A DNA stretch of 64,000 nucleotides from Euphorbia lathyris. Taxonomy: Eukaryota > Streptophyta > Magnoliopsida > Malpighiales > Euphorbiaceae. Shown one piece after another: positions 7,349-39,237 of the stretch. Each line of letters begins with the position of its first letter. Position 1 is the stretch's first letter. Where the stretch lies: the NCBI RefSeq assembly GCF_963576675.1, contig NC_088911.1, forward strand, positions 73,189,256 to 73,253,255, in the 5' to 3' direction. The translations under genes were made by a program, and so were the position numbers. The notes below the pieces were generated by a model. It did not search any database, was not told the DNA's origin, and was given only the letters and a program-made list of their open reading frames with translations.

Positions 7349-7600
7349 AGTTTTTGGCGCCGTTGCCGGGGACTATTTTGTTTATAATTAGATTAAATTT
7401 GCCTAGACCAATGTGTTTATAATTAGATTATATTTCAAAATACCCGACAACAACACCATCAAGTTTTTGGCGCCGTTGCCGGGGACTATTTTGATTATAA
7501 TTAGATTAAATTTGCTTGGAACTATTTTATTTATAATTAGATTATATTTCGAAATACCCGACAACAACACCATCAAGTGTTGCCGGGGACTATTTCATTT
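7349..7600 (+). repeat. LARD primer-binding site, tandemly repeated
   Basis: The first site (7355-7372, TGGCGCCGTTGCCGGGGA) matches the 3' end of plant tRNA-Asp. A unit of about 113 bp carrying it is repeated: a second full site at 7468-7485, then a third truncated copy from about 7574 that keeps only the GTTGCCGGGG part. Only the first lies next to the LTR end and should prime minus-strand synthesis. Confidence 0.8.
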
Positions 7601-9584
7601 ATAATCTGTGTAAATTGAATAGGTTGAAACAATTGTTTAGATTTGTATATAAAAAAATTTTTTTTTTTTGGGTTTTTCGTGTCGTCTCGTCGAGACACCT
7701 GGCTGTCTCGACGAGACACATAAAAAAAAAAAAATTCCGTGTCGTCTCGGCGAGACACTGTTCATCTCGCCGAGACGGACACGAAAAAAAAAATATTAAA
7801 AAAAAAATTTAAACGTTTTTTTTTTCTTTTCTGTTTCTTTCTCTATTCTTATGTTTGTTTTCTTTTTTTTTTCTATTGGCAGAACCGTCTAATCGGAATA
7901 CTCACCGACGCCGGATTGATTTTCAGGACTGCAGCTTGGAATTGAAAATGTAGCATCGGAAATTCGGGGTTGGATTGACAAGCCACCCCTGAGGGAGTTT
8001 TTCTATCCTATTTCTTTTCTGCACTTTATGTTTTACTTTTATGTAATGATGGAAGTAAATGCATGTTGTAAGTGTGGGGAGGAGATACTAGGATATGATG
8101 ATTTTTGATTCTGTCATTTGCATGTTTTTAATTTCTTTTTGTTTTTCTATATTAGGTTGCATGTTTTTGTTTTAATTTTAGGATTTCATGCTTTTTGTTT
8201 TTGTTTGCTTTTTAATTCTAGGAATAAAAAGAATCCCAAACAGTTGAATTTGATACATTTAGCTAACCCGACAATACAGTTGACAATGCGCTTAAAAATT
8301 TGCACATTCTAAATGAAATTTATGCATGCGAAAAATATTGAACAACGTTTGAGTCTCCAAAGAGTATTATTTGCCTAAAATTGACATGGAACGGAACGTT
8401 AGTTGAGGCTATGATTGATACAAATAACCCTTCAATTGTGAGTTAGAGCCATAAAGATCAATATTTTAGACTCATGATTAGGAACAATTGATCTCTTAGG
8501 TGTGGGATTACATTTATTGTCTTTGTGCTCATAGGAATTGCATCCAATACTGGTTGAATTTTGTGTTTTTATTAAACTTGAAATGATTAGGCAACCTAGG
8601 TGTAGCCCTTTGTGAAATTTAGCCTATTTCTTTGTTTAGCCAAAATCCCTTAACAATTCCCCTAGATAAGCCTCTTTGAGCCTTTTATCCCTTTCTTTGA
8701 TCAACCCTGTTACAAACCTTAGCCTTCTTAAATATCCTTTCTCACCCAAGTTAATTGACTCAATTTAGTTTTGATGAATCCTTAGACACACCTATCTTTC
8801 AATTTCCCGCTAGCAATCATTAAAAGGTTGTAATTTTAATAGAAGAAGCAACCTTTACCCAATTGAATTTCACTATTTTTCCCCTCTATTCAAAGAAAAA
8901 AATAAATGGTTAAAAACCAAATTAAAAAAAAAAGAAAAAAAAATAATAGAGGAAAGGATAAAAGAAGTGTTTATATTTTAGTTGCTTCCCGAATTCACAA
9001 ACACAACCTTGAGCTTAAACCTTCTTATAACGGATAACGTGTCCCTTTTGGATTCTGACTTGCTTGAGGACAAGCAAGATTTTAAGTGTGGGGAGGTGGT
9101 TTATAGCTCCCTAAATGCGAAAAATGTGTCCTTTTTGCAAAATTTTTAACTATTTGAGTCATTAACTTTTTGCCTATAAATTCTCTTTTTCCTACCCTAA
9201 ACCTTTAGCCAATGTTACAACCCTTTAAAGACCTATGATTTTGTTTAATTTTAATGCATTAATTTTGACCGGATGGATGATGCAATCCCAATGTGACCAC
9301 TTTGTGCAATTAAATGTAGAGCGTTTACAAAAAAAAAAAAATTTCACCCAAACACTTGAGCGTTAGAGTGACCACTTGTGAGCTATCAATTTTAGTCATT
9401 TTCTTTCGTTTTCATGAAGTGTTGATTGATAAAACCAATTAATCAGTTTTAGAGACTCGCCTGAGGTTCATTATATTTTTAATTGCAAAATGAGTAGTCT
9501 GAACTGTTGTGAATAATAAAGTGTAGTAGATTCTTGTTTTTGTAAGGGAGCTATTTGTTGATTTTTCTCTGTTTTGAATTCTGT
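7601..9584 (+). other. LARD internal region, non-coding
   Basis: There is no ORF resembling gag or pol. Four more TCTCGNCGAGA palindromes lie at 7685-7695, 7706-7716, 7745-7755 and 7764-7774. Polypurine-like AAGTGTGGGGA copies lie near 8077 and 9085. The latter follows a hairpin at 9059-9078 (CTTGCTT/AAGCAAG) and precedes TTATAGCTCCC, so it looks like a second, internal copy of the 3' end signal. The rest is AT-rich. Confidence 0.7.
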
Positions 9585-9622
9585 CTTGCTTGGGGACAAG
9601 CAAGATTCAAGTGTGGGGATGT
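9585..9622 (+). promoter_or_regulatory. LARD pre-PPT hairpin and polypurine tract
   Basis: The stem CTTGCTT/AAGCAAG with a 6-nt loop (9585-9604) is followed by AAGTGTGGGGATG just before the 3' LTR. The Athila elements have a shorter version of the same arrangement. Confidence 0.65.
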
Positions 9623-11273
9623 TGGTAGCTCCCATTTATATAGGGTTTTTAGGATTAATTTAGTTTGTTTTCCCTTTGTTTCTATTTAATTTCAGTATCG
9701 TTTTATTACTTTTTAGTTAAAATTAGTAATTTCCTTTATTTATGGTATTTTCGGTGTTTTCAGGGATTTTCAGGGACCTTTCGTGCATTTTTGAACCAGA
9801 CCCAAGCCTATTAGAGCATTTCCGGATTATTCAGGGACCGTCAGAGCACTTTTGGGATTCATCAGGGACCATTAGAGCACTTTTCGGAAGCCCATGGACC
9901 TAAACAGATAAAAGCCGAAGCAAAATCGCCCCTTTTTGGACCTATCTCGGCGAGACAATACCTGTCTCGTCGAGACAGGCCCTCGTCTCGTCGAGACACT
10001 CCTTGTGTCGACGAGAGGAGGCGGGGCAAGGCGCACCAACGCCTTCCCCCTTGCTGGAATGCGCGGATTTGGGCCTAAAAGCTCATTTAAACACTTTGTA
10101 AATGTCCCGTTTTACCCTTGAGGCATTAGGGTTTCCTCCCTAACTCTATAAATATGGAGCTAAACCTAATCCTTGGGGGGGGGGGGGGGGGATTAGCCAT
10201 TCAATAAATTGGAGAGCCGCTAGGGCTTTCTCTCCTCCACAATGTAGATTTAGCTTTTATTTCAGTTTTATTTTCATGTTTCTAGATTAGGTTTATTTCA
10301 GTTTTTATTTTCTTTTGTCAAGAACGATTGATGGGAGAAGCTCCGCATCTTCTATTTTTATAATTGGAATCGGCAAAACGGGTTTTGGATTTCTATCTCT
10401 TTCCCTTTCATCTTTTGCGATTATATTCAATTGAAGGTTTTTCCATTGTTCCTATTTTCCTATTGCTATGATTGGTTTGTCTATGAACTGATCTCCATCC
10501 AATTTGGGATGGGGATGAAATTGATTGTATGAATATGTATGATTAGGGATCTAGGACCTTTGATTGATTAGTTTATGCATGCTTAATGCCTAGAAATTGT
10601 TAGGAACAGGATTTATGCTAGAATGAACATTGATAATGATCAACTAGCCTGTTTATGTATATAATGTGCTTAATGCCTGTGACCCTGACATTAAATAGGA
10701 TTATAGATAGATGAGAACCTGACCATGGAATCGTCTATACCGAAATTGTGTAAATCTGACTTCGCTAGAGACCACTAGGAATGAGGCTTTGTGGCTGGGC
10801 TACGGCTTTAGCCTTAGTTGTCAATAAACCTAATGCTTTGCATGACCTAGGGTATATGCCTAATCAAGCCGTCACCCGAATGCATGTGAATAGGTTAGAC
10901 AAATCCCGTACAAATTTGTCTTTCACTTAGGACAATTACCTTCAATCATTGGTAAAACATAAATCTGAACTCCCTAAACCCATACATAGGATTTAATCAA
11001 AGGATTCCTCAACCTATATTGTGCCATCCGTCAATTCACCTTCTACCCTGTCAATTGTTTACTTTATTTTGTTATCTTTATTGCTTTCAATTAGTTAATT
11101 AGTTATCAAAAAACCCAACTTTTATCCAACCCTCTAAACAATTAGATCATTCTAGGTAGATTTGCTAGTTATAACGAATAGTCTTTGTGGTTCGATCTCG
11201 TGCTTAGCACAATATTACTTGTTGCGATAGGATACACTTGTCCTATTAAATGCTATATACTTTACGAGCATCA
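9623..11273 (+). repeat. LARD 3' LTR
   Basis: Begins TGGTAGCTCCC, with one change from the 5' LTR start, and ends CGAGCATCA. It is nearly identical to the 5' LTR. The clearest differences are the G-run length and a damaged fourth palindrome. Confidence 0.9.
9945..10191 (+). promoter_or_regulatory. LARD promoter copy in 3' LTR
   Basis: Palindromes start at 9945 and the fourth is mutated. TATAAATA lies at 10147-10154, and the G-run is 17 G long (10175-10191). Confidence 0.6.
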
Positions 11274-12775
11274 ATGACTCTGGGGTGTGAACAGTAGACG
11301 TTGGGTATCACAGGAAGTAATTGCGGAGTCGTTATATATTGGATTGAGCATTTATCACTCCCGATAAATGGGAGATACATCCATGGATCGCTTGTGGAAG
11401 ACTCGACTATAAATTATTGCAAGGTGATAACTTAAGAGTAAGAAATACATATTTCACTTAACCTATCTTTTTGAGTTGACTCAGCCTGTACAAGCAAAAT
11501 GAACGTCTCGCTATATGTGACTTGACATCACCCATAGTCATAAGATTCAGTTCAAGGATGTAGTTGATAAAGGATCGAATTATACTGTAACTAATACGGA
11601 AAGGTTAACGACAGAATCAACCTGTCTTCTTATAGCTTTGGGGGAATGATTACGGACTTGCTAATCACATACTCTGTACATCATTCCGTTATGCAAAGAT
11701 TAAATATAATTCTTTGAAAATTAATTTAATAACGTTGCATACGGCTAGAAGCAATAAGAACTTAATAGATCACACATAAGACTTGGAACCTAAAAGAGAG
11801 ATAGATGTTAATTAATTGATAGAGGCCCAATTGAGCCCAATAAGGGGGTCGAAATTCATGTAGTGATATACATGAATAATTAATTTGATTTTATTAATCC
11901 TAATTAGATTAGGAATATGAATTAAATTAATTAAGAGATAATTAAGTTAGGAGTTTTAATTAGATTAATATACTCCTATTATTATCCAATAAGGTTATTA
12001 TTATTATCCTTAATATATTAGATATATAGTGAGATAATAATTAGGAATTCTATTCCGAATGGAATTCCTATTCAGTAACCTAATTCTATCTAACTAGGGA
12101 TTAGATACAAGAGATTATAAATACCCCTTCCCTTAAGATTTTCGAAATCCAAGCAAGCCATACCCTACTTGTGATTTTCGAAATTCACCTAGTCCAAGAG
12201 AGAGAAAATTCGACACCCTTAGTTCGAGGACGAGATTTCTCTACGGCTTCGTTTGATCAATTGATTTTCATCTATTTCTTTTATCCTTGATCTTGTGTTG
12301 ATTAATTAGAGGCAGTCTACTTTGGTTGCTATTCAACGGTTGATTCTAAATTAATCTTCCCGTGTTTTATTTCGTGTTTGGGAACTCGAAGAAGAAAAAC
12401 AAACAAAAGGGAGAAATTCGTTTTACTACTCCTACATTAGGTCAGTTCACGATTTCGTGGATTCCCGGAGATCGAACCGTCGGATCGTCGCGATTTTTGG
12501 ACAGGAGGTTCTAGACATATTCTTCCACGTTTCTACCGAAGGGATTGGCGTTCGGAGGTCTGGAAGGTCTGTTTCGGATAGGGGCAGATTGGTAGACAGT
12601 TTCTATCTCTTTTGAAGTTGTGGGCACTTCGTTTGCAACGGTAGATAGAACTTCTAAAAGGTATTTCTTCTTATCCTTCTTTATATGAAATAACAGTTAA
12701 CTGATCTTGTGGTTAAATGGAAATAAGTTAAAATTTTTATATTTCCGCTGTTATACCTTAGCCTAATTTCCAACA

Positions 12776-13412
12776 GCTTGACACGACTGACGCTTGTGAG
12801 ATTGAGACGACCCTTATTGGTGTGTACAATTCACTAGGACGCTAGGTAAATGAGAGTGTATCCCGATGATATCCGTGACGTATAGATACATTGGAGGGGT
12901 AGCGACATGAGTGAGGGGAATGACTTATTTGGTACATCGGCACGACTCATGATCTAAAAAACAACATAAGCGACTATGCATGAGGTGTATGTGAGGGATT
13001 ATCATCATCGGTTGTAATGACGTACTTCGAAGATACGGGGGGTTACACGGGCTGATGTGACGCTCATGGTACGTCCGAGACTTAAACAGACCATGATGGA
13101 GACGTGCGGGGCATGTGTCCATAGTTTACTTGGTATCGATACTGATAGCAGGGAACCGCCTTTCTGGGAAACACAAGCTTCCTGAAACAGGCTGACATAG
13201 AGGGTGTGTCCTAAACTAGAAGCAAGTGGGACGTGACCACCACATAGGGGGCGTGGGTCAATAGTTAGTTTAAACCCGAGATACAAATACGTAGACGTAC
13301 CAACGGAACCTTGGCGTGCTATGCAGAAAGTGGTAACACACGGGGTGTGCCCTAAACAGGTTAAGCCACAAAGGAGACGCGAATGACATACGTGACGTGC
13401 GCCAATTGTCAG
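12776..13412. repeat. Degenerate tandem repeat, segment 1
   Basis: Diverged repeats built on phrases such as 'gacatacggggtatg' and 'gagacgcatgggata', directly after the Copia-1 LTR. The segment ends at GTCAG (13408-13412), the target duplication of Athila-A. It continues at 27323. Its ORFs are random. Confidence 0.65.
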
Positions 13413-14969
13413 TGTTAAGCCCAAAATATACCTAAAATATCATTAACATTTACATCATTTTTATTACAAATTCGTGTTATTTATATCTGTTTAGATTACT
13501 TTTACTCTCGAATATCTTTCTTTCTTGCAAGGTACCTAAATATTTGGTAAAATCCAAATAGGAACGAAAAAGGATCTAAAACAGAAGAAAAACCCTACAA
13601 AAGGAGTCAAAGACAACGTAAATCGAAAGCGCCAAGTCGAAGACACGAATGAAAGCTAAGAAGTGAGAAAAATCACCGGGCCGTGACAGTGGATCCTCAA
13701 CCCACGGCCGCGACACGCGTGGTATAGCTATTTCTCCCCTTCGTCCGTCGTTCAACTCAATGCTACGTCATTCACGGCCGCGGATTACCATCCTCGGTAA
13801 GTGCAGAAAATTTACAAAGAGCATTTAACACATGCTGAAAATCCAAGAAACGCGTTCGTTCAAGTGGATAAAGACGTCCTTTCACAACGGACACGACTCT
13901 TAACCAATGGATACATCACTTCAAACACAACCCTTCAACATCTATAAATAAAGAGTTGATGTTGAGAAAAAGTGCAGTGAAATGTTATAATATAGATATA
14001 GAATCAGAGCGTAGAACTTATGTCGAAGTTCTAAGTAAACACATTTCGAGAGTTAGAAATTGGATTCTGTACAAAACAAGATGAGGTACACATATTGTTT
14101 ATAGTTTAATTACAACTCAGTAGCGTTTAGACATTGTTCCAGTTTTAGTTTGCATCATGGTAGTGGCCGACCGAATCCCTATTACGAAGTTACAGCGAGA
14201 AGATTGAGTAGAGTGTTCGCCCCTGAGCCTGACAACCTCTTAGGAAACCCAAGGAAAGGAACCGATCAAGCCCTTCACTTGCACGCCCTCGAAGAACTCG
14301 ATGCTCCTTGTTCTCTGTAAACTTGTATCAATTTATATTTCATCTAATAAAGTCCGTTCTATTCGACAAATCGTTATGCAGCACTTATGGTAACCAATCC
14401 AATATAAGTGAGGCTGGTGTTTTCATTAATATGCACTTGAATTCAAAATCATTACAAGGAAACTTTGTTGAACACTTAGGCAAATTATCATCTCGAAAGA
14501 GTTTTAATTTGAGTAAGGGCAACTATCCCGAAAGGGTTTTGTCGCGTTCAAAGCCAATTAATTAGAGGTTCCGTCATTTATTTCATCATCATAATTGATA
14601 CAAAGTTTAAGTTGTTTTCTTTGCTTAATGCAAATGAATAAATTCATTCGTTTTTCTAAAAAGTTCTAAATGTTCATGTTTTGTAAAATTCATCCTTAAA
14701 ATCAGAAGACCTTTCTAACAATCGATTTATTCTAAATATAAAATCTTATTCCAGCATTTTCAAATACTCAAAGTTCACAAATTCAATTAAACAATTTCCT
14801 AAATTCAATTAGACAAATTTCACTTTTCATTTACATTCAATAGTAAATCTAACAAGTTCGAAATTAACAGATTCAAAAAAATAAGTTTTTCGTTAAAAAA
14901 CGTATTCCTGTGGGATCGATATTTTTATTACTACAAGCGAAACCGTGCACTTGCGGAAATCGCTCAACA
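13413..14969 (+). repeat. Athila-A 5' LTR
   Basis: Runs TGTTAAGCCC to CGCTCAACA, 1557 bp. It carries GC-rich hairpins upstream of a TATA box. Confidence 0.93.
13675..13950 (+). promoter_or_regulatory. Athila-A 5' LTR promoter: hairpins plus TATA
   Basis: The first inverted repeat is GGCCGTG ... CACGGCC (about 13679-13709). The second is CCGCGGAT/ATCCTCGG with a 4-nt loop (13778-13797). TATAAATA lies at 13943-13950, 145 bp after the second hairpin. Confidence 0.65.
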
Positions 14970-14975
14970 AGTTTC

Positions 14976-14993
14976 TGGCGCCTTTGTGGGGGA
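14976..14993 (+). promoter_or_regulatory. Athila-A primer-binding site (tRNA-Asp like)
   Basis: TGGCGCCTTTGTGGGGGA, 6 nt after the LTR. It differs at three positions from the tRNA-Asp complement used by the LARD, so priming by tRNA-Asp is likely but not certain. Confidence 0.65.
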
Positions 14994-15162
14994 TATGCCA
15001 AAATTTTTGACAAAATTTTTATTTTTCGTATTTTATTTTCGAATCTAGGTTTATACATTATTTTTATACAATTTTTATATTTTATTTATTTTCAGTTATA
15101 TAACATACTTGTTTTCAATTTTGTTTTGAAGGTAGTTTGGCTCGTGTAACAATTTCAAGTTC

Positions 15163-17678
15163 ATGCGCAGTTTGCGAAATTCGGGCACGCCACCAGATCC
15201 TTTAGATCTAGAAATTGAAAGAACGCTTAAGAAAAATAAGAAAAACAACAAAAACAAAGACAAAACACCCTTAAAAACCAAAGTAGACCAGCCAGAGATT
15301 ATGGCCGATCCACCGACACTTATGGATTATGCTAGGCCAGGAATGGCCGGTGTAACTAATAGTGTAGTTAGACCCCGTATAAACGCAAATCAATTTGAAA
15401 TTAAGCCTGCTTTGCTTAATATGTTGCAAAACAACGTAACGTTTTATGGACTACCTAACGAAAACCCTAATGCACATTTGACAAATTTCTTAGAAATTTG
15501 TGACACTTTTAAAATTACTGATGTAACAGCCGAAGCAATCAAACTTCGCCTCTTTCCTTTCACTTTGAAGGATAAGGCAAAAATTTGGTTAACTTCTATG
15601 CCTGCTGCAACATTTGAAACTTGGGACCAATTAGCCCAAGTATTTTTACAAAAATATTTTCCCTTAGCAAAAACCGCAAGAGTCATCAAAGAGTTGACAT
15701 CTTTTACACAAAATGATAATGAAACTCTTTATGAAGCTTGGGAACGTTTTAAAGAACTTCAACGTTTATGCCCCACCACCAATTGCCAGATGCACTTTTA
15801 ATGCAGACATTCTATAATGGATTAAATCCTACAACTAGAGGTTCATTAGATGCTATGTCTGGAGGGTTATTTATGAAGAAGACGTCCGCCCAAGCAAGAG
15901 AACTTTTGGAAGAAATGGCAATCAACAGCAGTATGTGGCCCGCCGAGCGTGGCCATATACCGACGGCGAAACCATCATCCTCAGGTACATCATCAGTTAA
16001 AGGTATAATGAATCTTGATCCAGTAGCAATGTTACAAGCCCAATTTTCTGCCTTATCGCACAAAATTGATAAATTTATGGCATCATGCGATCCTAATGAT
16101 CCAATCCAGAGAGACATTGATTACGAAGGTATGAATGAGATAGAACAGGTAAATTTTGTCCAAGGACAAAACCAAACTACTAATCCTTATTCTAATACTT
16201 ATAATCCTGGATGGAGAAATCATCCTAACTTTAACTGGAAAGATGGTAATAATAATAATAATGCAAATGCTAATCAATATCGGATAAATAATTATCAAAA
16301 TCAAACAAGAGATACGATTAGCACTTTATCTTCAAAAATCGACAAATTTATTGATGCTATGAATGGAAAGGTAAGTAATCAAGACGATGGTTTTAAACGG
16401 ATCGAAAATAAATTCGATCAGCTTATCAAAAACCAATCATCTAGCATCCATAATTTGGAGGTTCAAATTGGACAACTTGCTAAATCAATTCCATCCCGCA
16501 AAGAGGGAAGTCTTCCCAGCCAAACGGAAGAAAATCCGAAAGAGCATGTTAAGGCTATCACTCTTCGCTCAGGAAAAAACTACTTAGGTCCGGAAATGCC
16601 CGGAAATTCAACTTTACCTGGAAATGATTTACCAAAATCCAAAGAAGATACATTAAAACAAAAAGATACGCCAATTGACTCTAATCCAAAACCTTTTGTA
16701 CCAAAACCACCTTTTCCACACAGGGTCCGAAATAAGGACCATGATAAACAACTTTTATCATTTTTAGATAAACTTAAAAATTTGCATATAAATTTAACAT
16801 TCATGGATGCAATTACGCAAATTCCTAACTATGGAAAATTCTTGAAAGATTTAATTTCAAAAAAGATTAGTTGGGAAGGAATTTCATCCATTTCACTTTC
16901 TGAAGAATGTAGTTCGATAGTATCAAGAAAATTACCTACTAAACTCAAAGATCCCGGATGCTTTACCATTCCGTGTACTTTGGGAAATATGGAATTCCCA
17001 AGTTGTCTTTGTGATTTAGGAGCTAGTATAAACTTGATGCCATTGTCTATTTTTGAGAAATTAGGTTTAGAAGAAGACATCAATCGTACCAATATGGTTT
17101 TGCAATTAGCGGATCAATCCACTAAAAGACCATATGGTATAATTGAAGACGTTTTGGTGAAAGTTGACAAATTTATTTTTCCTACTGACTTTGTTATCTT
17201 AGATTTTGCTTATGATGCTAATTGTCCGCTAATCTTTGGTAGACCATTCATGAACATGGGACGTGCTCTAGTTGATGTGTCGGAAGGAAAAGTAGTTTTA
17301 AGAATAGGTGACGATAAGATCGAGTTCGATATGAATCAAGCAATGAAATATCCTATGGAGGATTTCGCTTGTATGAAGCTTGATTTAGTTGAAGAATGTG
17401 TTAATGAAATTGTTCAAAGAGAAGAAATAATGGAACCTATAATGGGTGAAGAATTAGAAGATAAGGACCCAGAGCCTTTGATTCGAGAAGATGGACCAGT
17501 TCCGCCTTCAGTAATAGTTCCACCTAAATTAGAACTTAAAGAATTACCAAACCATCTGAGATACACTTTCCTAGGCGGAAGTGATACTCTACCTATAATC
17601 ATCTCTAACAAATTAACAGAAAATCAAGAAGAAAAATTGAAAGAAGTTGTTAGAAATAGAATAGGAAGTATGGGATGA
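15163..17678 (+). pseudogene. Athila-A gag and protease
   Basis: Begins at ATG 15163 with a basic N-terminus, then a capsid-type domain (FYGLPNENPNAHL ... WLTSMPAATF ... FLQKYFP). One base is missing in the C-run near 15771-15774. The first frame stops at 15801 and the protein continues in the frame that runs to 17678 (LMQTFYNGL ...). An Asn-rich middle and a conserved segment (HVKAITLRSGK) follow. The aspartic protease has the D-x-G site in CDLGASINLMP. No CCHC zinc knuckle was seen. The frame ends at a TGA (17676-17678) where the family has tryptophan. Gag would build the particle and protease would cut the polyprotein. Confidence 0.88.
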
Positions 17679-20429
17679 CAGATTTCAGATTTAAAAGGAA
17701 TTAATCCTAGTATTGTAATGCATAGGATTCACTTAGAAGAAGATAAGCCACCTAAAGCGGATAGACAAAGACGTTTAAATCCGAACATGAAAGAAGTAGT
17801 AAAAAATGAGATTACTAAACTTTTAGACAATGGAATCATTTATCCTATTTCGGATAGTGAATGGGTTAGTCCAATCCATTGTGTACCCAAAAAGGGAGGT
17901 ATAACTGTAGTAAGGAATGATGAAGGTGAATTAATACCTACGCGAACCACCACCGGTTGGAGGGTTTGTATAGATTATAGGAACCTAAATAAGGCAACTA
18001 GGAAATATCATTTTCCTTTACCTTTCATCGATCAAATGATCGAAAGGATAGCCGGTCATGCATTTTATTGTTTTCTTGATAGTTATTCCGGATTCTTTCA
18101 AATATATATTTACCCGGATGACCAAGATAAAACAACCTTCACATGTCCTTATGGAACATTTGCATATAGAAGAATGCCTTTTGGTCTATGTAATGCACCA
18201 GCAACTTTTCAACGTTGTATGACTGCAATTTTTAATGATTTCATCGAAGATATCATGGAAGTATTTATGGATGATTTTTCAGTTTATGGAGATTCTTTTG
18301 ATGCATGTTTAAAAAACTTAGATAAAGTTCTTTCTAGATGCGAAGAAACGAATTTAGTATTAAATTGGGAAAAATGTCATTTCATGGTTGACGAAGGAAT
18401 TGTTTTAGGTCATAAAATATCCGAAAAAGGATTAGAAGTGGATAGAGCAAAAACTTCAGTAATAGAAAAATTACCCCCACCAACAACTGTCAAGGGAGTA
18501 AGATCTTTTCTAGGACATGCAGGTTTTTACAGAAGATTTATAAAAAACTTTTCTGTAATTTCCAAACCACTTACTAATTTACTTATGAAGGATTCAACCT
18601 TCGACTTTAATGAAGATTGCATTAAAGCTTTCGAAACATTGAAAACAGCCTTAGTCAGTGCACCCATAATTGCTAAGCCCGATTGGGATTTACCTTTTGA
18701 AATCATGTGTGATGCAAGTGACCTAGCAGTGGGATGTGTTTTAGGTCAAAGAAAGGATAAAAGATTACATGTTATTTATTATGCAAGTCACACATTGTCC
18801 GGTGCACAATTAAATTACACAACAACAGAAAAAGAGATGTTAGCCGTAGTATTTGCATGTGATAAGTTTAGGTCATACTTGTTAGGATCTAAAGTTATTA
18901 TTTATACAGATCACGCAGCTTTACGTTATCTGTTTGCTAAGAAAGATGCAAACCCGCGTCTGATTAGATGGGTTTTGTTGTTACAAGAATTTGATATAGA
19001 AATTAAAGACAAAAAGGGAGTAGAAAACCTTGTCGCCGATCATCTATCGAGACTAGAAGATGAAAACGGTCCTATAGGTGAAACTGTCGGTATACGAGCT
19101 GATTTCCCCGATGAACATCTCTATCAAGTAGAAAGTATCATGTCACCATGGTATGCAGATTTTGCTAATTATCTTGCAACCGATATTGTTCCGGAAGGAT
19201 TATCTTCCCAACAAATGAAGAAATTTTTCTTCGATATTAAACAATATTTTTGGGAAGATCCCTTTCTATTCAAATCATGTGGTGACGGGATAATTAGGAG
19301 ATGTGTTGGAGAAAATGAATATGAATCTATAATAACAGAATGTCATTCCAGCTCATATGGAGGACATAATGGAGTTAATAAAACGGTAGCTAAAATATTA
19401 GAATGTGGTTTCTTTTGGCCTACAATGTTTAAGGACGTTGGTTCATTTATTACTCGTTGTGATAAATGCCAAAGAACGGGAAATTTAGGAAGGAAAGATG
19501 AGATGCCCCTCAAAAACGTGTTGGAAGTTGAAATCTTCGACATGTGGGGAATTGATTTCATGGGACCTTTTCCGCCTTCCAACGGTAAAACTTACATATT
19601 AGTAGCCGTTGATTATGTTTCGAAGTGGGTTGAAGCAATTGCAACCCCTACGAATGATTCTAAAGTAGTTATTAATTTTCTTGACGATATATTTTGTAGA
19701 TTCGGTTGTCCTAGATTCGTTGTTAGTGATGGCGGTACCCATTTCATAAATCGAAATTTTGATATGCTTATGAAAAAATATGGAGTACGCCACCGCGTGT
19801 CAACGCCATACCATCCTCAGTCGAATGGTCAGACGGAGATCTCAAATAGAGAACTTATATGGATTTTAGAGAAAATTGTTTCATCATCAAGAAAAGATTA
19901 GTCACAAAAACTCAATAATGCGCTATGGGCATACCGTACTGCATTTAAGTCACCAATAGAAATGACTCCATACCGTTTGGTGTATGGAAAAGCATGTCAT
20001 TTACCAGTTGAATTAGAACATAAAGCCTATTGGGCTATTAGAAAACTTAATTTTGATTTACAACAAGCAGGAAAGAAACGTTTGCTTAATTTAAATGAGT
20101 TAGATGAGTTACGACATCTATCGTATGAAAATGCGAGGATTTATAAAGAAAAAGTGAAAAAATGGCACGATGCCAAGATCAAAGTCAAACACTTTAATGT
20201 TGGAGATAAGGTGCTGTTATTTAATTCACGACTTCGTATATTTTCAGGAAAACTTAAGTCCAGATGGGCCGGACCGTATTTAGTCGTCAAAACATTCGAC
20301 TATGGTTCTTTAGAACTCGAGGAAACTAACGGTAATCGTTTTAAAGTTAACGGTAATCGATGTAAAATTTATTACGAAAATATTTCCGAAATAGGAACTA
20401 ATTTCGTAACAAGATTTCCTGACATATAA
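17679..20429 (+). pseudogene. Athila-A pol: RT, RNase H, integrase
   Basis: From the first Met at 17718, RT covers about residues 50-230, with the catalytic box F-M-D-D (183-186) in place of Y-V-D-D. RNase H follows ([22 protein letters not shown]), then integrase with an H-H-C-C finger (ending CDKCQ) and acidic residues in [17 protein letters not shown] and the E of [13 protein letters not shown] at 19899-19901 replaces a tryptophan codon present in Athila-B. The same frame then continues through the integrase C-terminus to TAA 20427-20429. 'LDSYSG' has Ser where Athila-B has Gly. These three changes are all G to A on the coding strand. Confidence 0.92.
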
Positions 20430-20749
20430 ATCATTTCATTTTTCTAATAGTTAGTTTTTATTATTTATTATTTTTATTTTTATTTTTTGTTTTGTTTAGA
20501 TTATATCATTTTATATTAGAATTTTAGATATAGAAAAATATATTCAAGTCATGATTTCAATTAATTTTTAGGATTTTAATGAGAATTAGAAGAAATTCAG
20601 TGATTCTCAGTTGAGAATTTGAAATTCTCAGTTGAGAATTCACATATATAGAATTCTTAAGGAGGTAAAAAATTTCTGAACTTGTAGAGGATTTCAGATT
20701 CTCAGTTGAGAATTCTGATTTCAAATTGAAAGGAAAATTTCTGAACTTA

Positions 20750-21007
20750 CCGAGGATGAGGATTCTCGGTAGAGGATCAGAAATTTGGAGTTTTGACAAC
20801 TGATTTCCGCAAGGAAATCAGCGTGTCGCGACCGCGGGTCAGCATCCTCGGTCGCGACACGGGGAAATTATGCAAAAATTGACCATTTTTCCAGCAGATG
20901 CAACTCTTCAGAAACGAAGCGTTAAGTTTCTTCATTTCTAAAAGGGTTGTTTCATGCATTTTCATTTCAAAAACAACACCTCTTTTCGTCTTAGGATCTT
21001 ATAAATA
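20750..21007 (+). promoter_or_regulatory. Internal promoter of Athila-A accessory ORF 1
   Basis: Hairpins: CCGAGGAT/ATTCTCGG (20750-20769) and a perfect 12-bp stem GTGTCGCGACCG/CGGTCGCGACAC with a 14-nt loop (20823-20860). TATAAATA follows at 21000-21007, 139 bp after the stem. The ATG is at 21135. Just upstream (about 20590-20720) are repeats of TTCTCAGTTGAGAA. Athila-B has the same layout. Confidence 0.65.
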
Positions 21008-21134
21008 GGTTCTAGATGTTCAGTTTTCTGTCACTTTCTTTTCATCTCTATCAGAACAATTCTCTGATTTTCTTACCATTCAACAACCCAGAAATTAAGT
21101 TCAAAACCTTTCTTCCTTACTCATTCCAAACACC

Positions 21135-22082
21135 ATGACTTCCTCAAACACTTCATCTAAGAAAGTTATTGCTTCACGCAATAAACGTGTTGATATATCA
21201 GAGCGTTTACGGATGTAACTTTCCCATCTTCAATCATGATGAGGGAAGGCGCTTTTTGAAGCTTCGATACATATTCTTTGTCGGAATGCTATACATGGAT
21301 GACTTTCTTAACGATCAGTTGGGAATTAAAGATGATATGAGTCGCTACATGAACGTTTAGGATGGACCAGATTTGTTGATATGAAGTTTCCTATAATTGG
21401 AGACTGGATATTAGAGTTCTTCTGTACGGTTCGCTTTGTTAACAAGCGTCGGGTGCGTCTTAGTTTTCGTCGGGATGGCAAAACTTTCACTTTTGGATAT
21501 CCAGAATTACATGCTTGGTTTGGTTTTCCCTTGAAGGATACTACCAAACGTCATCATGGAAGAGATATGACGTCTACTGATATTTGGCGAATGCTCACCG
21601 GCATCTGGCCTTTCAACCCTAAACTTGCCTATAATAAGTCTTTCTATTCCAACTCTATGCTATATTTGCATAAGTTTCTGAGTCACAGCCTGTTCGGTCG
21701 CACGTTCAGTAGTGTCGTCCAAGAATCTGATCTTTATGTCCTTGGCGATATATTTCAAGGCAACGTGGTTGATTCTTCAAAACTTCTGATGGAGGGTCTT
21801 GTTGCCGCATCTAGATCCAAGGCTAAGAAGGTTGGATTCGGGAATATTATATGTGGAATAATTCTAGGGACCAAGGGAAGTATTTCTGTTCCTTGGAGTG
21901 ATGCTGAATCTTTCCCAATGCTAGACTATGAGTTTTTAGAATATGAAGGTCTAGTGAAACGAGTATTTCGATCAGGACCAAATTTTCTTTCTGCACCAGA
22001 ACGTCAAGCCTTCGTGCAGTTGAAAATAGAACGCTATAGGGCTAAGAAAATCCCGATTGAAAGGGACGAATTTTTAGCATAG
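21135..22082 (+). pseudogene. Athila-A accessory ORF 1, broken
   Basis: The span of 948 nt (316 codons) equals that of Athila-B. Relative to B there is one extra base near 21207 and one missing base near 21350, so about 140 nt are out of frame but the rest is open to 22082. The protein has no evident signal peptide or membrane segment. It shares with accessory ORF 2 the block F-P-x-I ... V-N/N-K-R, a 'S(H/F)SLFGR' motif after H-K-(F/Y)-L-S, and a Gly-rich 'xxNxIxxIxLG' segment. It resembles my recollection of the Athila ORF-1 family, but its function is unknown. It probably had its own transcript, given the TATA box 135 bp before the ATG. Confidence 0.75.
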
Positions 22083-22559
22083 CTTTTGTTTCATTTGTTT
22101 GTAAATATGTTTCTATTCAATAAAAATCTTTCTCTTTTGCATTATTTCCTGTTTTTGATTATTTGGTTAAACTAACATTTAATTCCATAATTCTAAACTA
22201 ATGCACTTATTAAATGCAAACTTAATCCATTCATTACTAATTAAATGATTAATAACTAAGTTTCAATTCCTTAAATAAAGATTCATTTAACTTACATTAA
22301 TAAATGCACATAAATGCTTCAATTAATTTTAGTTCCAAACCTTTCCTATTCTTAATTTAACATCCATTAATTAAAGCATTTTTCATTTATTTTTCCATTA
22401 ATAAGGATAAACCTTTGGTTTTCCTTATCATTTAATGTTTTACATTTATGTTCTTAAGTACAGATTACATTGTCCAGGAGTACAGGATCAAATTTATCAA
22501 AGAAATTACACAAATAGGAGTTAATATGCAGATTTGGGTAGCCACGAGGTGATCCGCGT

Positions 22560-22904
22560 CCGAGAATTAATGGATTCTCGGTAACTTCAGCAAATTTACT
22601 CCAATTTCAGACAAAAAATTCGCTGCCAAACGCAATTCGTGGCCGCGAATGGTGTATTTCTCGGTAACTTCAGCAAATTCCCACAACAATTCAAAGAAAA
22701 AATTGGATGAAAAACGCGATCCGCGGCCGCGGATACACATCCACGACCGCGATAAAGGCAACTCCAAGTCCGGATTTTTGGCCTAATTTTCAACCTTTTT
22801 CCTATTCAACCTCTACTTACACCTCTTCCTATTCCAACTATACCAATTACTCTTCCTATTCCTACTCTACCTATTAATCTTCCTCTTCAAACCCTATATA
22901 TATA
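22560..22904 (+). promoter_or_regulatory. Internal promoter of Athila-A accessory ORF 2
   Basis: Hairpins: CCGAGAAT/ATTCTCGG (22560-22581), a weak one near 22635-22665, and CGCGGCCGCGGAT/ATCCACGACCGCG with a 4-nt loop and two G-T pairs (22722-22751). TATATATATA is at 22895-22904, 143 bp after the last stem; the ATG is at 23117. The rest of 22083-23116 is AT-rich spacer without a gene. Confidence 0.62.
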
Positions 22905-23116
22905 CCTATTCCTTACACAACCCTTACACCACCTCCAATTTTAACCAATTCCCTACTCTTACCTCTTCCCAATACTTCACTTTTACTCTTCCCAATTTCA
23001 TCATTACCCTTTTTAATCACTTACCCCTTTCAATTCAAGTCTCCATACAACACTTCTACTTCATCTTCAGCCTCAAGCTTTTCTCTCTTTTCATCTAAAC
23101 CCTAAACACCATAACC

Positions 23117-24322
23117 ATGCCTAGAGCAAAGCGTGTTGGACACAAGCCGACTGTCACTGAGGCTAATCGCCTAAGGATTAGTTGCGGGGCTTATTTCGAC
23201 ATTCATTCTGAAGAAGAAGTTGGACGTTTCAAGCACTTTTCAAACACCAATCGTAAGTTCGTGGATATGCAGTTTCTTGACTTTGATTCGGTAAGGAAGT
23301 TGAACTTCACTACACAAATTACTTCTTTTATTGAAACTTTGGGATCGGAAACTTTTGCTTCTATGCGTTTTCCACAAATTCAAGAATATGTGGTTGAATT
23401 TTTGGTTACTTTGACGATGAACAAAAAGAGGACTGAAATTTCTTTTCGGAATAATGGTGTCACCTATACCGTTGATTATGAGGCTATGGGTAACATGTTT
23501 GGTTTCCCTACTAGTGATTTTTATGATAAGCCTCGGGATTTTGACAATAACTCTTTTTGGCAAACTCTTTCCGACCAAACTTCTTTTGATTCTAAAAACA
23601 CTTCAAGCAAGTTGATTAAGGACAATTGTGTGTTCTTCTTTCACAAGTATTTGAGTTTTTCACTTTTTGGTCGTGTTGAGAGTTCGAAGATTCAAGTCCG
23701 GGATTTGTTTGTTTGGGATTGTTTGTTCAAGGGTTTACGGGTTGATAGCACTGGAATGATTTTTGACAATTTATATCGTGCTTCGAGGGCTCATACCACT
23801 CAAGTCCCTCTCGGTAATTTCATAACCGCTATTGTTTTGGGAGCACGGGATGAATTGGCTACTTTTGATATGTCCACCTACCATGGATATGTTCCGGTTT
23901 TGGACATTGCGGCTCTTGAGCGGGCTCATTTGTTGGTTTCTGCTGCTCCTCCGGTTTTTATTTCTTATGCTACCCGTATTGCTCATCTTCGTGGCACTAT
24001 GGGTGAAGGTGCTTCTAGTTCTCATAATGTAGGTACCGAGGGAGAAGGAGCGGAGGAAGGAGCGGAAGATGCCCCACAAGCCCAAGTAACACAAGATAAT
24101 GATCCGGTGGATTTAAGGAGAATTTTGAACCAAATCAATGCCAATAATCGACAAATGAATTTACGGATTGATGATTTGGTGGAGAACAACATGGTGATGA
24201 ATGACAACCTCAATACTTTGAGGCGTGCGCATAGATCGACTCGGCATCGGATGCTTTCGTTTTTCCGACGCCGAAATGTGGAAACTTCACCAACACCTCC
24301 GGATTCCCCGCCGCATGCTTAG
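23117..24322 (+). CDS. Athila-A accessory ORF 2, intact
   Basis: An uninterrupted 401-residue ORF. The N-terminus is basic. Residues 85-245 align with accessory ORF 1: FPQIQEYVVEF, NKKRTEISFRNNG, FFHKYLSFSLFGR (174-186) and PLGNFITAIVLGA (231-243). Residues 297-325 are acidic and Gly/Ala-rich. Residues 334-370 look like a coiled coil (LNQINANNRQ ... NDNLNTLRR). The tail is Arg-rich (RSTRHRMLSFFRRR), then Pro-rich. No hydrophobic membrane segment is visible, which argues against an envelope role. Athila-B has the same 402-codon frame with one stop. The function is unknown. An RNA- or DNA-binding or particle-associated role is only a guess from the coiled coil and basic tail. Confidence 0.85.
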   Translation: MPRAKRVGHKPTVTEANRLRISCGAYFDIHSEEEVGRFKHFSNTNRKFVDMQFLDFDSVRKLNFTTQITSFIETLGSETFASMRFPQIQEYVVEFLVTLTMNKKRTEISFRNNGVTYTVDYEAMGNMFGFPTSDFYDKPRDFDNNSFWQTLSDQTSFDSKNTSSKLIKDNCVFFFHKYLSFSLFGRVESSKIQVRDLFVWDCLFKGLRVDSTGMIFDNLYRASRAHTTQVPLGNFITAIVLGARDELATFDMSTYHGYVPVLDIAALERAHLLVSAAPPVFISYATRIAHLRGTMGEGASSSHNVGTEGEGAEEGAEDAPQAQVTQDNDPVDLRRILNQINANNRQMNLRIDDLVENNMVMNDNLNTLRRAHRSTRHRMLSFFRRRNVETSPTPPDSPPHA

Positions 24323-25729
24323 GTTTTATCTTTTATTTTTTTTCTTATCTTGTTTTCATTTCAGTTTCGTACATTTTTATTTTCTTATGTTTCGTACAAT
24401 TTCAGTTTTAATTTAATTTTATGATGCATGTTTTCTTTGCTATATCTTTCATTTCTTTCCGTTTGTTTTATCTTTAACGTTTTATCTCCATTTTTGCACC
24501 AATGAGGACATGGTCCAATTTAAGTGTGGGAGGAGATATATACATATATCATTTTTATACAAACGAATGAATGAACGAATGTATGCAAATGAATGAACGA
24601 ATGTATGCAAATGAATGAATGAATGTATGCAACACTTGTTTGTTTTCAAAAATACAAAATGCAACGTATATTGCAAACGTATATTGCAACAAATGAAAAA
24701 AATTCACATTTTTTATGAAATATCATTTTTACATTTATAAATTAATCATAAGTTAAAATTTTTACGATTATTTTTAGGTTATCATTATCGATAGAAATAA
24801 ATATTTCTATACGGGTAATATTTTTCAAATTTTTCACAAATCTTCGACACGATTTTAAGTAAAAATTGTCTCGAGTAAATGTATTTAAGTAAAAATTCTT
24901 TATTTTCAATCTCTATTTCATATCATGAAATTCATGATATAATAAATCTTATTTTAAATTTTCAATTAGGTTTATAGGCATTAAATTAAACTAACAATTT
25001 TTAGCTCGGTTTTGATTTTGTCTTACATTAACACCAATTGAAGTTTTTAAGGAAACTTTAGTCATAATACATGTTGAATTTTAAGTCAATATAGGATGAA
25101 TGTGCTAATTTTCTTTTTCCCAAGTTATAATCAATAAATCGTATTCTTAACTTTTGACCACGATTGAGACCAACCTTATCACAATCGAGGTATGAAAGGG
25201 AAGAAATTAATAAATAAAGCGTACTTTTGGCCACGGTTGCGACCACCCTTATCACAATCGAGGTATGAAAGGAATGTTTAAATAAGAAAAATTAAGCGTG
25301 TTTAAAGTTTAAAGTAACGATTGCGTCCACCCATGGCATGGTCGGTACCTCTTAAGCGAACACAAATAAAATGCATATAAAGTTACGATCGAGACCACCC
25401 TTATCACGGGCGTAACTAAGCAAATAAATTAAACTTTATACTCATATATAATAATTCAAGTTTGGGAAAGGAAATTTGGTGCTTTGAAATGCCTTGAGAT
25501 GAAAGACTCAATAACATGCGTGCTTACATCGTCCCGAATACTTCAAATTTAAACATTGAAATACAAGACGAATGATATATCGTACTTATACTAAGTTAGT
25601 TTGATATTTTGCGTATAAATTTGCCATGCAAAGTTAGTCTTTTCGGCTTAACTAATTTAAAAGGTAAACACAAAGATATATGTTTTATTTTCATAAAGAG
25701 ATTAGTTAAGGAATAAATTCAGAGAAATC
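24323..25729 (+). other. Athila-A 3' non-coding region
   Basis: Contains a polypurine-like AAGTGTGGGAGGAG near 24521, a GAATGAATGAACGAATGTATGCAA microsatellite-like block (about 24565-24632), and dispersed repeats of 'gaccacccttatcacaatcgagg' type between about 25150 and 25420. Athila-B keeps all three (57180-57240 and 56385-56625). No gene is seen. Confidence 0.6.
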
Positions 25730-25765
25730 TTGCTCGGGACTAGCAAAAGATTAAATGTGGAGATT
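25730..25765 (+). promoter_or_regulatory. Athila-A pre-PPT hairpin and polypurine tract
   Basis: TTGCT/AGCAA stem around CGGGACT (25730-25746), then AAATGTGGAGATT up to the LTR. It aligns with the corresponding site in the LARD. Confidence 0.65.
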
Positions 25766-27322
25766 TGTTAAGCCCAAAATATACCTAAAATATCATTAAC
25801 ATTTACATCATTTTTATTACAAATTCGTGTTATTTATATCTGTTTAGATTACTTTTACTCTCGAATATCTTTCTTTCTTGCAAGGTACCTAAATATTTGG
25901 TAAAATCCAAATAGGAACGAAAAAGGATCTAAAACAGAAGAAAAACCCTACAAAAGGAGTCAAAGACGACGTAAATCGAAAGCGCCAAGTTGAAGACACG
26001 AATGAAAGCTAAGAAGTGAGAAAAATCACCGGGCCGCGACAGTGGATCCTCAACCCGCGGCCGCGACACGCGTGGTATAGCTATTTCTCCCCTTCGTCCG
26101 TCGTTCAACTCAATGCTACGTCATTCACGGCTGCGGATTACCATCCTCGGTAAGTGCAGAAAATTTACAAAGAGCATTTAACACATGCTGAAAATCCAAG
26201 AAACGCGTTCGTTCAAGTGGATAAAGACGTCCTTTCACAACGGACACGACTCTTAACCAATGGATACATCACTTCAAACACAACCCTTCAACATCTATAA
26301 ATAAAGAGTTGATGTTGAGAAAAAGTGCAGTGAAATGTTATAATATAGATATAGAATCAGAGCGTAGAACTTATGTCGAAGTTTTAAGTAAACACATTTC
26401 GAGAGTTAGAAATTAGATTCTGTACAAAACAAGATGAGGTACACATATTGTTTATAGTTTAATTACAACTCAGTAGCGTTTAGACATTGTTCCAGTTTTA
26501 GTTTGCATCATGGTAGTGGCCGACCGAATCCCTATTACGAAGTTACAGCGAGAAGATTGAGTAGAGTGTTCGCCCCTGAGCCTGACAACCTCTTAGGAAA
26601 CCCAAGGAAAGGAACCGATCAAGCCCTTCACTTGCACGCCCTCGAAGAACTCGATGCTCCTTGTTCTCTGTAAACTTGTATCAATTTATATTTCATCTAA
26701 TAAAGTCCGTTCTATTCGACAAATCGTTATGCAGCACTTATGGTAACCAATCCAATATAAGTGAGGTTGGTGTTTTCATTAATATGCACTTGAATTCAAA
26801 ATCATTACAAGGAAACTTTGTTGAACACTTAGGCAAATTATCATCTCGAAAGAGTTTTAATTTGAGTAAGGGCAACTATCCCGAAAGGGTTTTGTCGCGT
26901 TCAAAGCCAATTAATTAGAGGTTCCGTCATTTATTTCATCATCATAATTGATACAAAGTTTAAGTTGTTTTCTTTGCTTAATGCAAATGAATAAATTCAT
27001 TCGTTTTTCTAAAAAGTTCTAAATGTTCCTGTTTTGTAAAATTCATCCTTAAAATCAGAAGACCTTTCTAACAATCGATTTATTCTAAATATAAAATCTT
27101 ATTCCAGCATTTTCAAATACTCAAAGTTCACAAATTCAATTAAACAATTTCCTAAATTCAATTAGACAAATTTCACTTTTCATTTACATTCAATAGTAAA
27201 TCTAACAAGTTCGAAATTAACAGATTCAAAAAAATAAGTTTTTCGTTAAAAAACGTATCCCTGTGGGATCGATATTTTTATTACTACAAGCGAAACCGTG
27301 CACTTGCGGAAATCGCTCAACA
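25766..27322 (+). repeat. Athila-A 3' LTR
   Basis: 1557 bp, the same length as the 5' LTR. It differs at about ten bases by eye, including two paired positions of one hairpin stem. Confidence 0.93.
26028..26303 (+). promoter_or_regulatory. Athila-A 3' LTR promoter copy
   Basis: Same module as in the 5' LTR. Here the first stem reads GGCCGCG ... CGCGGCC. TATAAATA is at 26296-26303. Confidence 0.6.
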
Positions 27323-28588
27323 GTCAGCTTCTCTCCGAAAGCAACTATTACAATGATGGGCATTATGTGACAGGACAATGAACGCGGTATACCCGATACT
27401 CGAGGTCCGAATAGGATGCATATGTCAACACCTGAGGTATGTGCCAATTATTAACTCCTCGTTGGCTCACTAGTATCACGACAGAGTGGTTTGAAACACG
27501 GTGCATTTAGGAAATATGTTGACGTACATCATATGCCTTAGAGGTAGCTAAAAGGCATGATGAGAGTCACACTCGATGTGCCCCCATGGTTGACTTTTAC
27601 ACAACTTACGAACAATGCGATGGCTTGATTTTGGGATTTCAACCGTCGCGGGGGAAATCTAACATGTCGGGTATGTTTGACTGATTCGAGACACGAATAG
27701 GATACCCCTACGGCACACGTATTATCTGACCAACTTTGGACATAGATGAAGCACAGAGATGACTCAAGAGGTGCCTCCTAACCACATTGGAGGTGTCAGC
27801 TAGACACGATACCGACACGCAAGGTGCAGTTTAAGGATCAACTCAAGCTAGAGACACAAATACCTCGATGTATTTGCGGACATTGGTGCGTGTGGTAGAA
27901 TGAGAGGTGTCCCGATCCTATCGAGGTACCAATGAGATGCAAACGACGACTTACCTGGTATGTGTCAAAAGGTTAATTTGTTTCATAGCGCAAACCAAAC
28001 GACGATATGTTTTATGAGAATCCCTAAAGATCTTACGTGGATATTTATGATGTATTTGGTCCATCACCGATATTTGGGATACCAGCGATGACACACAAGG
28101 TAGACGTTCATAGTTCGACTGGAGCCTATCACTATGAACAAACTCAATGCTTGAGGAGCAACGAAGGTATAAACCAAGACCTTCGAGGTAAGTGCCAAAT
28201 GTTGAACTTAGACGTGGTACGAACATCTCGATACTACTGATACGAGCGAGACCCAAATAGCGACATATGGGGTATATGTCTCGGACTCATAAATAAGACA
28301 ATTCAAAGTTTGGGGCATTGGGACAATGGTAGCAAGGATATAGGGGGAGTGTGTCGAGGGTTTGACAACATAGACAAACCGCTGTTTGAGGCGCACTCAA
28401 GACATGAGTGATGACCTATGGGGCACACGTCAAAAGTTTGATAGGAGTTTCACGACATGAACAACTCAGTGAGTTAAGGTGTGAGTGGGTCACTCGAGAT
28501 GGCCTATAGGGTGGGTACGTGCCCAATGGTACGACTTGGGCTTGATGACATGAATCACTCGATATAAAAGGTACGTGCTAAAGGTCCG
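27323..28588. repeat. Degenerate tandem repeat, segment 2
   Basis: Continues segment 1 after the Athila-A target duplication. It ends with GTCCG (28584-28588), the target duplication of the solo LARD LTR. No gene is seen. Confidence 0.65.
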
Positions 28589-38548: not shown

Positions 38549-39203
38549 CCGCTTTTAGTGACAGAAAACGGTAAATTATAGAAATATTCCAACAGTTTTC
38601 AGATTTATTAAAAAGCTTTAGATCTACTCTATTCTATCATTTTGGTCCCCGGACTACCCAAATCGGGTCATAGTCTATAGCGGAGCCTCCCAAAACGATG
38701 TTTTATTTTAAAACGTTAATTTAAAAAAAAAAACTTTTTAAACTCTATATTTACAACGTTTTAATCCCGAACTACCCTCAAATCGGGTCACGGTTCGTGT
38801 TGGGACGTTAAAACGAGATTTATTTTTATTTAAAACAAAAACGTTTATTTAATACGAGACGGAAATTAAATAAATGCGGGAAAATAAATAAATGTAATAA
38901 ATAAATAACTAACTAAATAAATAAATAAAGGAAAAACTATAAATAAAATAAATAAACGAAATAAATAAATTAAACGAGTCTAGTCCTCGGATAATACCTC
39001 AAGATCGGTATTGACAGCTGAAGTCGGTTGATTCAACGAATTATGGTTTCTCGATATTTTTGTGTTTTTGTAAAATATTTAACTTTTTGGAGATTTTTCA
39101 ATTTTTAGGGAAAAAAATGTTTTCTCCCAAAAATTTACTTTCTCTCTCTAAAAAATGTTCTAGAGTGAGAAGCTCTCCCCCTAAAATCCGCTCTAAATGC
39201 ATG

Positions 39204-39234: not shown

Positions 39235-39237
39235 AAA

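Follow-up and report, generated by a model that had tools for sequence, protein, structure and literature searches.

How the genes that follow pol are expressed in plant retroelements of the Athila group is unsettled, with splicing, an own promoter and read-through all under consideration. This question is raised by a stretch of 64,000 nucleotides of Euphorbia lathyris DNA (RefSeq assembly GCF_963576675.1, contig NC_088911.1, positions 73,189,256 to 73,253,255; hereafter the window), which contains two related elements, Athila-A (13413-27322, plus strand) and Athila-B (64000-54475, minus strand, with its 5' part beyond the window), each with two open reading frames, ORF1 and ORF2, downstream of pol. 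In the long terminal repeat (LTR), before ORF1 (P1) and before ORF2 (P2), both elements have CpG-rich arrays that precede a TATA octamer by 115-151 bp, just where a sequence-only reading of the locus had placed them. From the modules shared by these arrays, the restriction of sense-strand TATA octamers to the three sites, the conservation of the P1 core and leader, and the purifying selection on the ORFs, we consider it likely that the LTR, P1 and P2 are three RNA polymerase II promoters of one make, two of them internal, built from motif arrays of the U3 type.

The likeness of the arrays is due to two types of module, alpha and beta, whose cores are related. Alpha has the core CCGAGRAT..ATYCTCGG and the flank GTAASTKCAGMAA, and in beta a similar core is set between CGCGAC-type flanks. 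The order is beta-alpha in the LTR and in an old related (relic) LTR, inverted alpha followed by beta in P1, and alpha-alpha-beta in P2. In the 5' LTR of Athila-A, beta (13670-13725, plus strand; a CG-rich core with the CGCGACACGCG flank) precedes alpha (13765-13817, plus strand; the core, then ATCCTCGGTAAGTGCAGAAAATTT). The P1 array of this element consists of inverted alpha (20729-20783, minus strand), a 9-bp stem with a GCAA loop (20800-20821, plus strand), and beta (20813-20869, plus strand), which includes a perfect 13-bp stem at 20822-20861; its P2 array consists of two alpha copies (22547-22602 and 22631-22685) and the weakest of the beta copies (22708-22763), all on the plus strand. 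In Athila-B, the P1 array is formed by alpha at 61018-61066 (plus strand, inverted relative to the element) and beta at 60928-60984 (minus strand), and the P2 array (59015-59230, minus strand) by alpha units at 59230-59177 and 59149-59095 and beta at 59071-59015. Modules are also found in the 3' LTR of Athila-A (25766-27322, plus strand; beta 26023-26078, alpha 26118-26170), the 3' LTR of Athila-B (54475-56027, minus strand; beta 55771-55716, alpha 55676-55624), and the relic LTR (39853-41174, minus strand, about 75% identical; beta 40904-40850, alpha 40806-40766). The alpha coordinates given here are those of the first alpha profile, in which one of eight units (that of the Athila-B P1) was misoriented; its orientation was corrected in the later alignment and hold-out profiles.

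The words CCGAGRAT, ATYCTCGG and YCGCGRCCG, singled out by the sequence-only reading, and in addition CGGYCGCGR, occur within the 64 kb only in the Athila arrays and the relic LTR. Ten alpha copies, the relic included, agree throughout in CTCGGTAA and CAG past the stem, as binding sites would be expected to do. The invariant letters beyond the stem lie mostly on this 3' side, with a few on the 5' side. Peaks of GC and CpG content lie in the LTR U3 region, before ORF1 and before ORF2, with others elsewhere in the element. CpG-poor palindromes such as ATTCTCAGTTGAGAAT are present upstream of P1 (20590-20720 in Athila-A, 61290-61100 in Athila-B) and are possibly decayed alpha units, judging by the best profile matches (E 1.3e-4 in Athila-B and 0.0038 in Athila-A, the latter a weak alpha-like unit at 20663-20715, minus strand).

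The similarity between the three sites exceeds that of shuffled sequences in most comparisons. Nine of the 12 local alignments between LTR, P1 and P2 score 16-22, against shuffle maxima of 12-14.5 (0 of 200 as high); the scores of the three weaker ones were reached in 4 (Athila-A 3' LTR and P2, minus orientation), 7 (Athila-A P1 and P2, plus) and 62 (Athila-B 3' LTR and P1, plus) of 200 shuffles. The alpha profile built from the four LTR copies alone finds P1 and P2 of both elements (E 6e-8 to 3e-6) and has no further match at E<=1 in the 64 kb. In the opposite direction, alpha from P2 alone finds P1, the LTRs and the relic with zero other matches, and alpha from P1 alone finds P2, the LTRs and the relic with one other match (E 0.3), the LTRs and the relic being recovered by either at E 1e-6 to 9e-4. 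The beta profile from the LTRs finds P1 (about 1e-7) and P2 of Athila-B (2e-6), beta from P1 finds the same P2 (9e-7) as well as the two Athila-A LTRs and the relic (6e-5 to 2e-4), and beta from P2 finds P1 (6e-7 and 4e-5). A repeat scattered outside Athila was considered and rejected within the 64 kb, since the six profiles gave only two matches elsewhere, at E 0.3 and 0.7.

Placement of the TATA boxes follows the same pattern. On the sense strand, the octamers TATAAATA and TATATATA occur in Athila-A (5' LTR and internal region) only in the LTR (TATAAATA, 13943-13950, 145 bp past the array), at P1 (TATAAATA, 21000-21007, 138 bp) and at P2 (TATATATATA, 22895-22904, with octamers at 22895/22897, 140 bp). 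The part of Athila-B lying in the window has them only at P1 (TATAAATA, 60780-60787, minus strand, read from 60787; gap 151 bp), at P2 (TATATATA, 58898-58905, minus strand, read from 58905; gap 115-117 bp) and in the LTR (TATAAATA at 55499; 144 bp from the last stem). With the 3' LTR of Athila-A (TATAAATA at 26296) and the relic LTR (TATAAATA at 40654; gap 122 bp) included, all eight arrays have a TATA octamer 115-151 bp downstream. The gaps originally claimed (145, 139 and 143 bp in Athila-A, 144, 151 and 122 bp in Athila-B, 122 bp in the relic) agree with these values to within about 3 bases, except for the P2 of Athila-B, where the distance depends on the stem end chosen. In none of 2000 shuffles of Athila-A (5' LTR and internal region), which contain 1.1 octamers on average, were all three 100-160 bp windows filled, these windows having been set post hoc with the data already seen.

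Below the P1 array, identity between Athila-A and Athila-B rises from 55-65% immediately downstream through 78-85% in the remaining spacer to 90-93% from the TATA box to about +75. At P2, one length change lies below the array, and most of the leader is 90-97% identical. Both copies show an extreme scarcity of G on the sense strand in the region of the P2 core and leader (7 G in 347 bases at 22770-23116 of Athila-A, 6 in 322 at 59000-58679 of Athila-B).

Judged by their protein sequences, ORF1 and ORF2 both belong to the ATHILA ORF-1 family and have diverged from each other as paralogues, a relationship overlooked by the sequence-only reading. In Athila-A, ORF1 (21135-22082, plus strand) is interrupted by frame changes in its 5' third, and ORF2 (23117-24322, plus strand) encodes 401 amino acids; in Athila-B, ORF1 (59703-60650, minus strand) and ORF2 (57471-58676, minus strand) carry in-frame stops at codons 254 and 107, respectively. 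PF03078 was matched above its cut-off of 20.2 bits by ORF2 (42 bits) and by two pieces of ORF1 (30.1 and 36.7 bits), and the Pfam match to Transposase_32 remained below its own cut-off. The two proteins are 33% identical over 229 residues (E 2e-37). The duplication probably predates the split of the ORF1 types, because ORF2 shares 29-34% identity with the five ORF1-type sequences used, whereas these are 53-78% identical between this plant and the Euphorbia records. Three protein relatives of ORF1 were found, all in Euphorbia (E. lathyris, 78%; E. peplus, 53 and 55%); none was found for ORF2 in either protein search, nor was a relative found in the viral contigs searched. Solved structures and NCBIfam gave no matches, and the AlphaFold2 models are too poor for use (mean predicted local distance difference test score 40.8 for ORF1 and 37.7 for ORF2). 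As estimated between Athila-A and Athila-B, the ratio of nonsynonymous to synonymous substitution rates is 0.21 for ORF1, 0.15 for ORF2 and 0.12 for pol (p = 1.5e-6, 4.7e-12 and 2e-17 by simple binomials, uncorrected for transitions); by this measure both ORFs are under purifying selection. The possibility that they are env-like was rejected, as no 19-residue window with mean hydropathy >=1.6, the criterion for a transmembrane segment, was found in the parts tested (ORF2, the first 253 residues of the Athila-B ORF1, and two Euphorbia ORF1 relatives). An AATAAA past ORF1 of Athila-A (22119-22124, plus strand) may be a poly(A) signal, although such a hexamer says little where the DNA is AT-rich.

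Several observations weigh against the promoter interpretation. The module copies were initially chosen by likeness, several of them being near-duplicates, and the comparison of the internal sites comprises two copies, Athila-A and Athila-B. The LTR-only beta profile misses the P2 of Athila-A, where its best match (E 0.034) falls on an alpha unit; beta from P1 is weak at the Athila-B LTR (0.078) and at the P2 of Athila-A (0.13); and beta from P2 matches the LTRs only at alpha units (6e-4 to 3e-3), not at beta units. Four TATA octamers are present on the antisense strand of Athila-A. In a strict scan of the two strands of the window (perfect CG stems, loop of at most 8), 33 of 47 octamers lack a palindrome at 60-220 bp upstream, among them those at 13943, 21000 and 26296, and the only one upstream of 60787 lies outside the array. 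Around P2, the TATA region (85-90% identity between the elements) is not above the spacer upstream of it (82-95%). The arrays themselves have diverged: identity is 85.9% in the LTR array against 96-98% in the rest of the LTR, and 76.3% in the P2 array against 90-95% around it.

Among 16 tracts compared, the P2 array is the most diverged and the LTR array the third. Such divergence, the tandem 82-bp units of the P2 array in Athila-B and the inversion of alpha in P1 would suit arrays that are a fast-changing repeat accumulating in non-coding parts of the element by template switching or slippage and having no promoter role, with incidental TATA boxes. However, the module profiles have no match in the 1.4 kb of non-coding DNA between ORF2 and the 3' LTR, the alpha positions stay invariant even in the relic, and neither the 115-151 bp distance of the octamers in all eight arrays nor the failure of all 2000 shuffles to fill the three windows fits an incidental origin; we regard this explanation as quite improbable. 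The P1 array is more conserved (94.0%) than its own spacer (85.4%). The earlier claim of conservation in two copies stands for the positions of the arrays, which are kept between Athila-A and Athila-B, and fails for their sequence, which has no special conservation. Decay of CpG sites as the sole cause of the divergence was rejected, since CpG-type changes are a minority (7 of 53 in the P2 array, 6 of 21 in the LTR array and 1 of 9 in the P1 array).

Two further points of the same adverse kind concern splicing: the ORF1 leader contains two candidate acceptors with pyrimidine-rich tracts, conserved between Athila-A and Athila-B, and the available part of a review (PMC7264820) assigns the transcription of env-like genes to the 5' LTR promoter. 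Transcripts that begin in the LTR and are then spliced could serve ORF1 and ORF2, and the internal arrays would have another role. Splicing is reported for barley Bagy2 in the same review; acceptors have also been predicted for Athila according to the accessible text of PMC2829016, and an intron of Athila6A is mentioned in that of PMC4977677. Against this, the ORF2 leader lacks a conserved candidate acceptor (one in Athila-A, none in Athila-B, by a crude scan), and an equally crude scan of Athila-A 14930-15330 detected no GTRWG/GTANG donor, a GTAGT being visible by eye near 15132. Moreover, splicing leaves unexplained why P1 and P2 of both copies have LTR modules and TATA octamers, and we consider it an unlikely alternative. 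The proposal of the sequence-only reading, that each accessory ORF has an LTR-like promoter of its own inside the element, is the one best supported by the shared modules, the TATA boxes, the P1 core and leader (better conserved than the spacer, which is not so at P2) and the selection on the ORFs, yet it is unproved, given the conserved ORF1 acceptors.

The common design was originally seen in GC-rich hairpins, and this part of the claim did not hold. Predicted DNA folding is strong relative to shuffles at P1 (z -10.2 in Athila-A and -5.6 in Athila-B) and in the relic LTR (-5.2), and lesser at P2 (-2.0 and -0.4 in Athila-A, -1.9 and -3.9 in Athila-B) and in the Athila-B LTR (-2.4); along the elements it peaks at P1 in Athila-A and at P2 and P1 in Athila-B, the P2 of Athila-A merely tying with a stretch of gag. 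In the ten alpha copies, 91% of stem cells are paired, against 29-56% when the stem is slid by 1-3 columns. These values would favor hairpins that act in folded form, as cruciform DNA or as RNA stems in packaging, export, termination or silencing. But both LTRs of the recent Athila-A fold no better than shuffles (z -0.96 and +0.13), three of the eight alpha stem pairs have unpaired cells, and the invariant letters extend outside the stem. Stem covariation, which had been suggested as a check, was not above chance, its score being reached by 94 of 500 shuffles. A role of the folded form thus appears very improbable, and on the grounds of LTR folding and covariation the hairpin was rejected as a conserved feature. 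The sequence-only reading also overlooked that the fold probably arises as a side effect of paired binding half-sites with quick turnover.

Under the three-promoter interpretation, each site would open with an array of protein-binding modules (alpha and beta) that are rich in CpG and imperfect as palindromes, followed by a spacer of about 115-150 bp, a TATA box, and the start or leader of the transcript. The genomic and gag-pol RNA would come from the LTR promoter, and P1 and P2 would produce separate shorter mRNAs for ORF1 and ORF2, old duplicates of one gene. A single DNA-binding factor acting on the modules would switch on all three promoters together; the palindromes would create the hairpin appearance, the bound sequence and not the folded hairpin being what matters. 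We infer transcription starts at P1 and P2, a common factor and co-regulation from these predicted sites. A more speculative extension, which we think improbable, is that the ORF1 and ORF2 proteins are themselves regulators, DNA-binding or anti-silencing, that would read alpha and beta at the LTR, P1 and P2 in a self-regulating, co-evolving circuit. The features that can be cited for it are basic stretches, such as the segment forming the C-terminal end of ORF2, and the lack of a membrane segment. VANDAL VANC proteins and foamy virus Tas serve as comparisons for element-encoded regulators, and in foamy virus a viral transactivator acts on both promoters.

Assignment of Athila-A to the Athila lineage (Ty3/gypsy) is supported by its pol, in which Pfam detects RVT_1, RT_RNaseH, Integrase_H2C2 and rve in gypsy order (17679-19901), that is, reverse transcriptase, RNase H and integrase, and by the ATHILA ORF-1 family proteins encoded by both downstream ORFs. 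As read from the sequence, a TGGCGCC primer-binding site, which we take to fit Athila, directly follows the 5' LTR; it also follows a member of another LTR family (5704-7349) and is thus not specific for Athila. The 5' LTR (13413-14969, plus strand, 1557 bp) has TGTT...AACA ends, and the element, with its paired LTRs, is flanked by a 5-bp target-site duplication, GTCAG (13408-13412 and 27323-27327). This duplication and only 10 differences between the LTRs over 1557 bases suggest that the insertion is recent. Three of these differences (13684, 13704 and 13779) are at CpG sites within the array and resemble C-to-T decay, as would be expected were the array methylated. An Rfam match to snoR71 (48 bits, cut-off 40) lies antisense in the gag region (15679-15784, minus strand). 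Elsewhere in the window, 39193-39805 contains dense short inverted repeats (GTTGGGC/CGCCCAAC) and long open frames on both strands.

The layout of the Athila LTR is shared by the other LTR family (5704-7349 and 9623-11274, plus strand; 30238-28589, minus strand), which has two or three GTCTCG-n-CGAGAC palindromes and other CG palindromes, situated in three copies 101-177 bp before TATAAATA. The motif is different, and blastn detects no similarity between these LTRs and that of Athila; the LTR half of the design is therefore not peculiar to Athila. A second cluster of GTCTCG-n-CGAGAC-type palindromes lies between two LTRs of this family (7684-7777), in a span (6228 to 10147) with no TATA octamer on the plus strand.

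The sequence-only reading knew of no description of such promoters, but the kind is known. According to the available text of Bousios et al. (2010, PMC2829016), in Sireviruses the LTR TATA box and ENV are each preceded by palindromic boxes that form CpG islands; this is taken to support an internal ENV promoter, which was not conclusively identified. Like these repeated motif (RM) boxes, the arrays described here are palindromic and CpG-rich, are found upstream of the LTR TATA box (with palindromy degraded in the Athila-A LTRs), and recur 5' of the genes after pol. By the same text, Sireviruses are Ty1/copia elements, whereas here reverse transcriptase precedes integrase; their boxes are about 10-20 bp long and number at least eight, whereas Athila-A has two in the 3' LTR, two at P1 and three at P2 (weaker alpha-like units uncounted). 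The Sirevirus core is CGG-CCG; here the alpha cores are of the CCGAG..CTCGG type, and beta has the words CGGYCGCGR and YCGCGRCCG and no single clean CGG-CCG box. Sireviruses further have one gene after pol, in contrast to two paralogues here, each with its own array and TATA box. For Athila6A of Arabidopsis, Panda et al. (2016, PMC4977677) refer to an 'ENV ORF promoter' and an 'internal promoter region', annotated upstream of the gene that follows pol; this is likewise an Athila element, with one internal promoter and an annotated intron, and the available portion of the paper names neither palindromic arrays nor sharing with the LTR. The maize Grande gene23, also an accessory gene located past pol and ahead of the 3' LTR, has its own promoter just upstream (Gomez-Orte et al. 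2013, cited by Vicient and Casacuberta 2020, PMC7264820), but it is an antisense gene, and shared LTR modules are not mentioned in the accessible part of that review. Foamy virus, an animal retrovirus, likewise has, in addition to the start in its LTR, a second one at an internal position (PMC7828637, in part). A sunflower Athila with a transmembrane ORF, as given in the excerpt of PMC11728184, differs from ORF1 and ORF2, which have no such stretch in the parts tested. None of the literature matches listed, covered by titles and abstract openings with subscription papers mostly outside, describes two internal promoters sharing LTR modules in Athila, nor are two such promoters named in the available parts of PMC6696364, PMC1142308, PMC11963269, PMC3276544, PMC11728184 and PMC7385966.

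What appears to be new is the recurrence of the same predicted modules at the LTR and at two internal sites, each preceding one of two paralogous ORF-1 family genes. An Athila element can thus carry duplicated genes of this family, each with a similar upstream region. If the proposed interpretation is true, a module family marking the LTR and two internal promoters would provide a sequence signature for internal promoters in silent elements, and the modules could help to identify the factor by which the family is activated.

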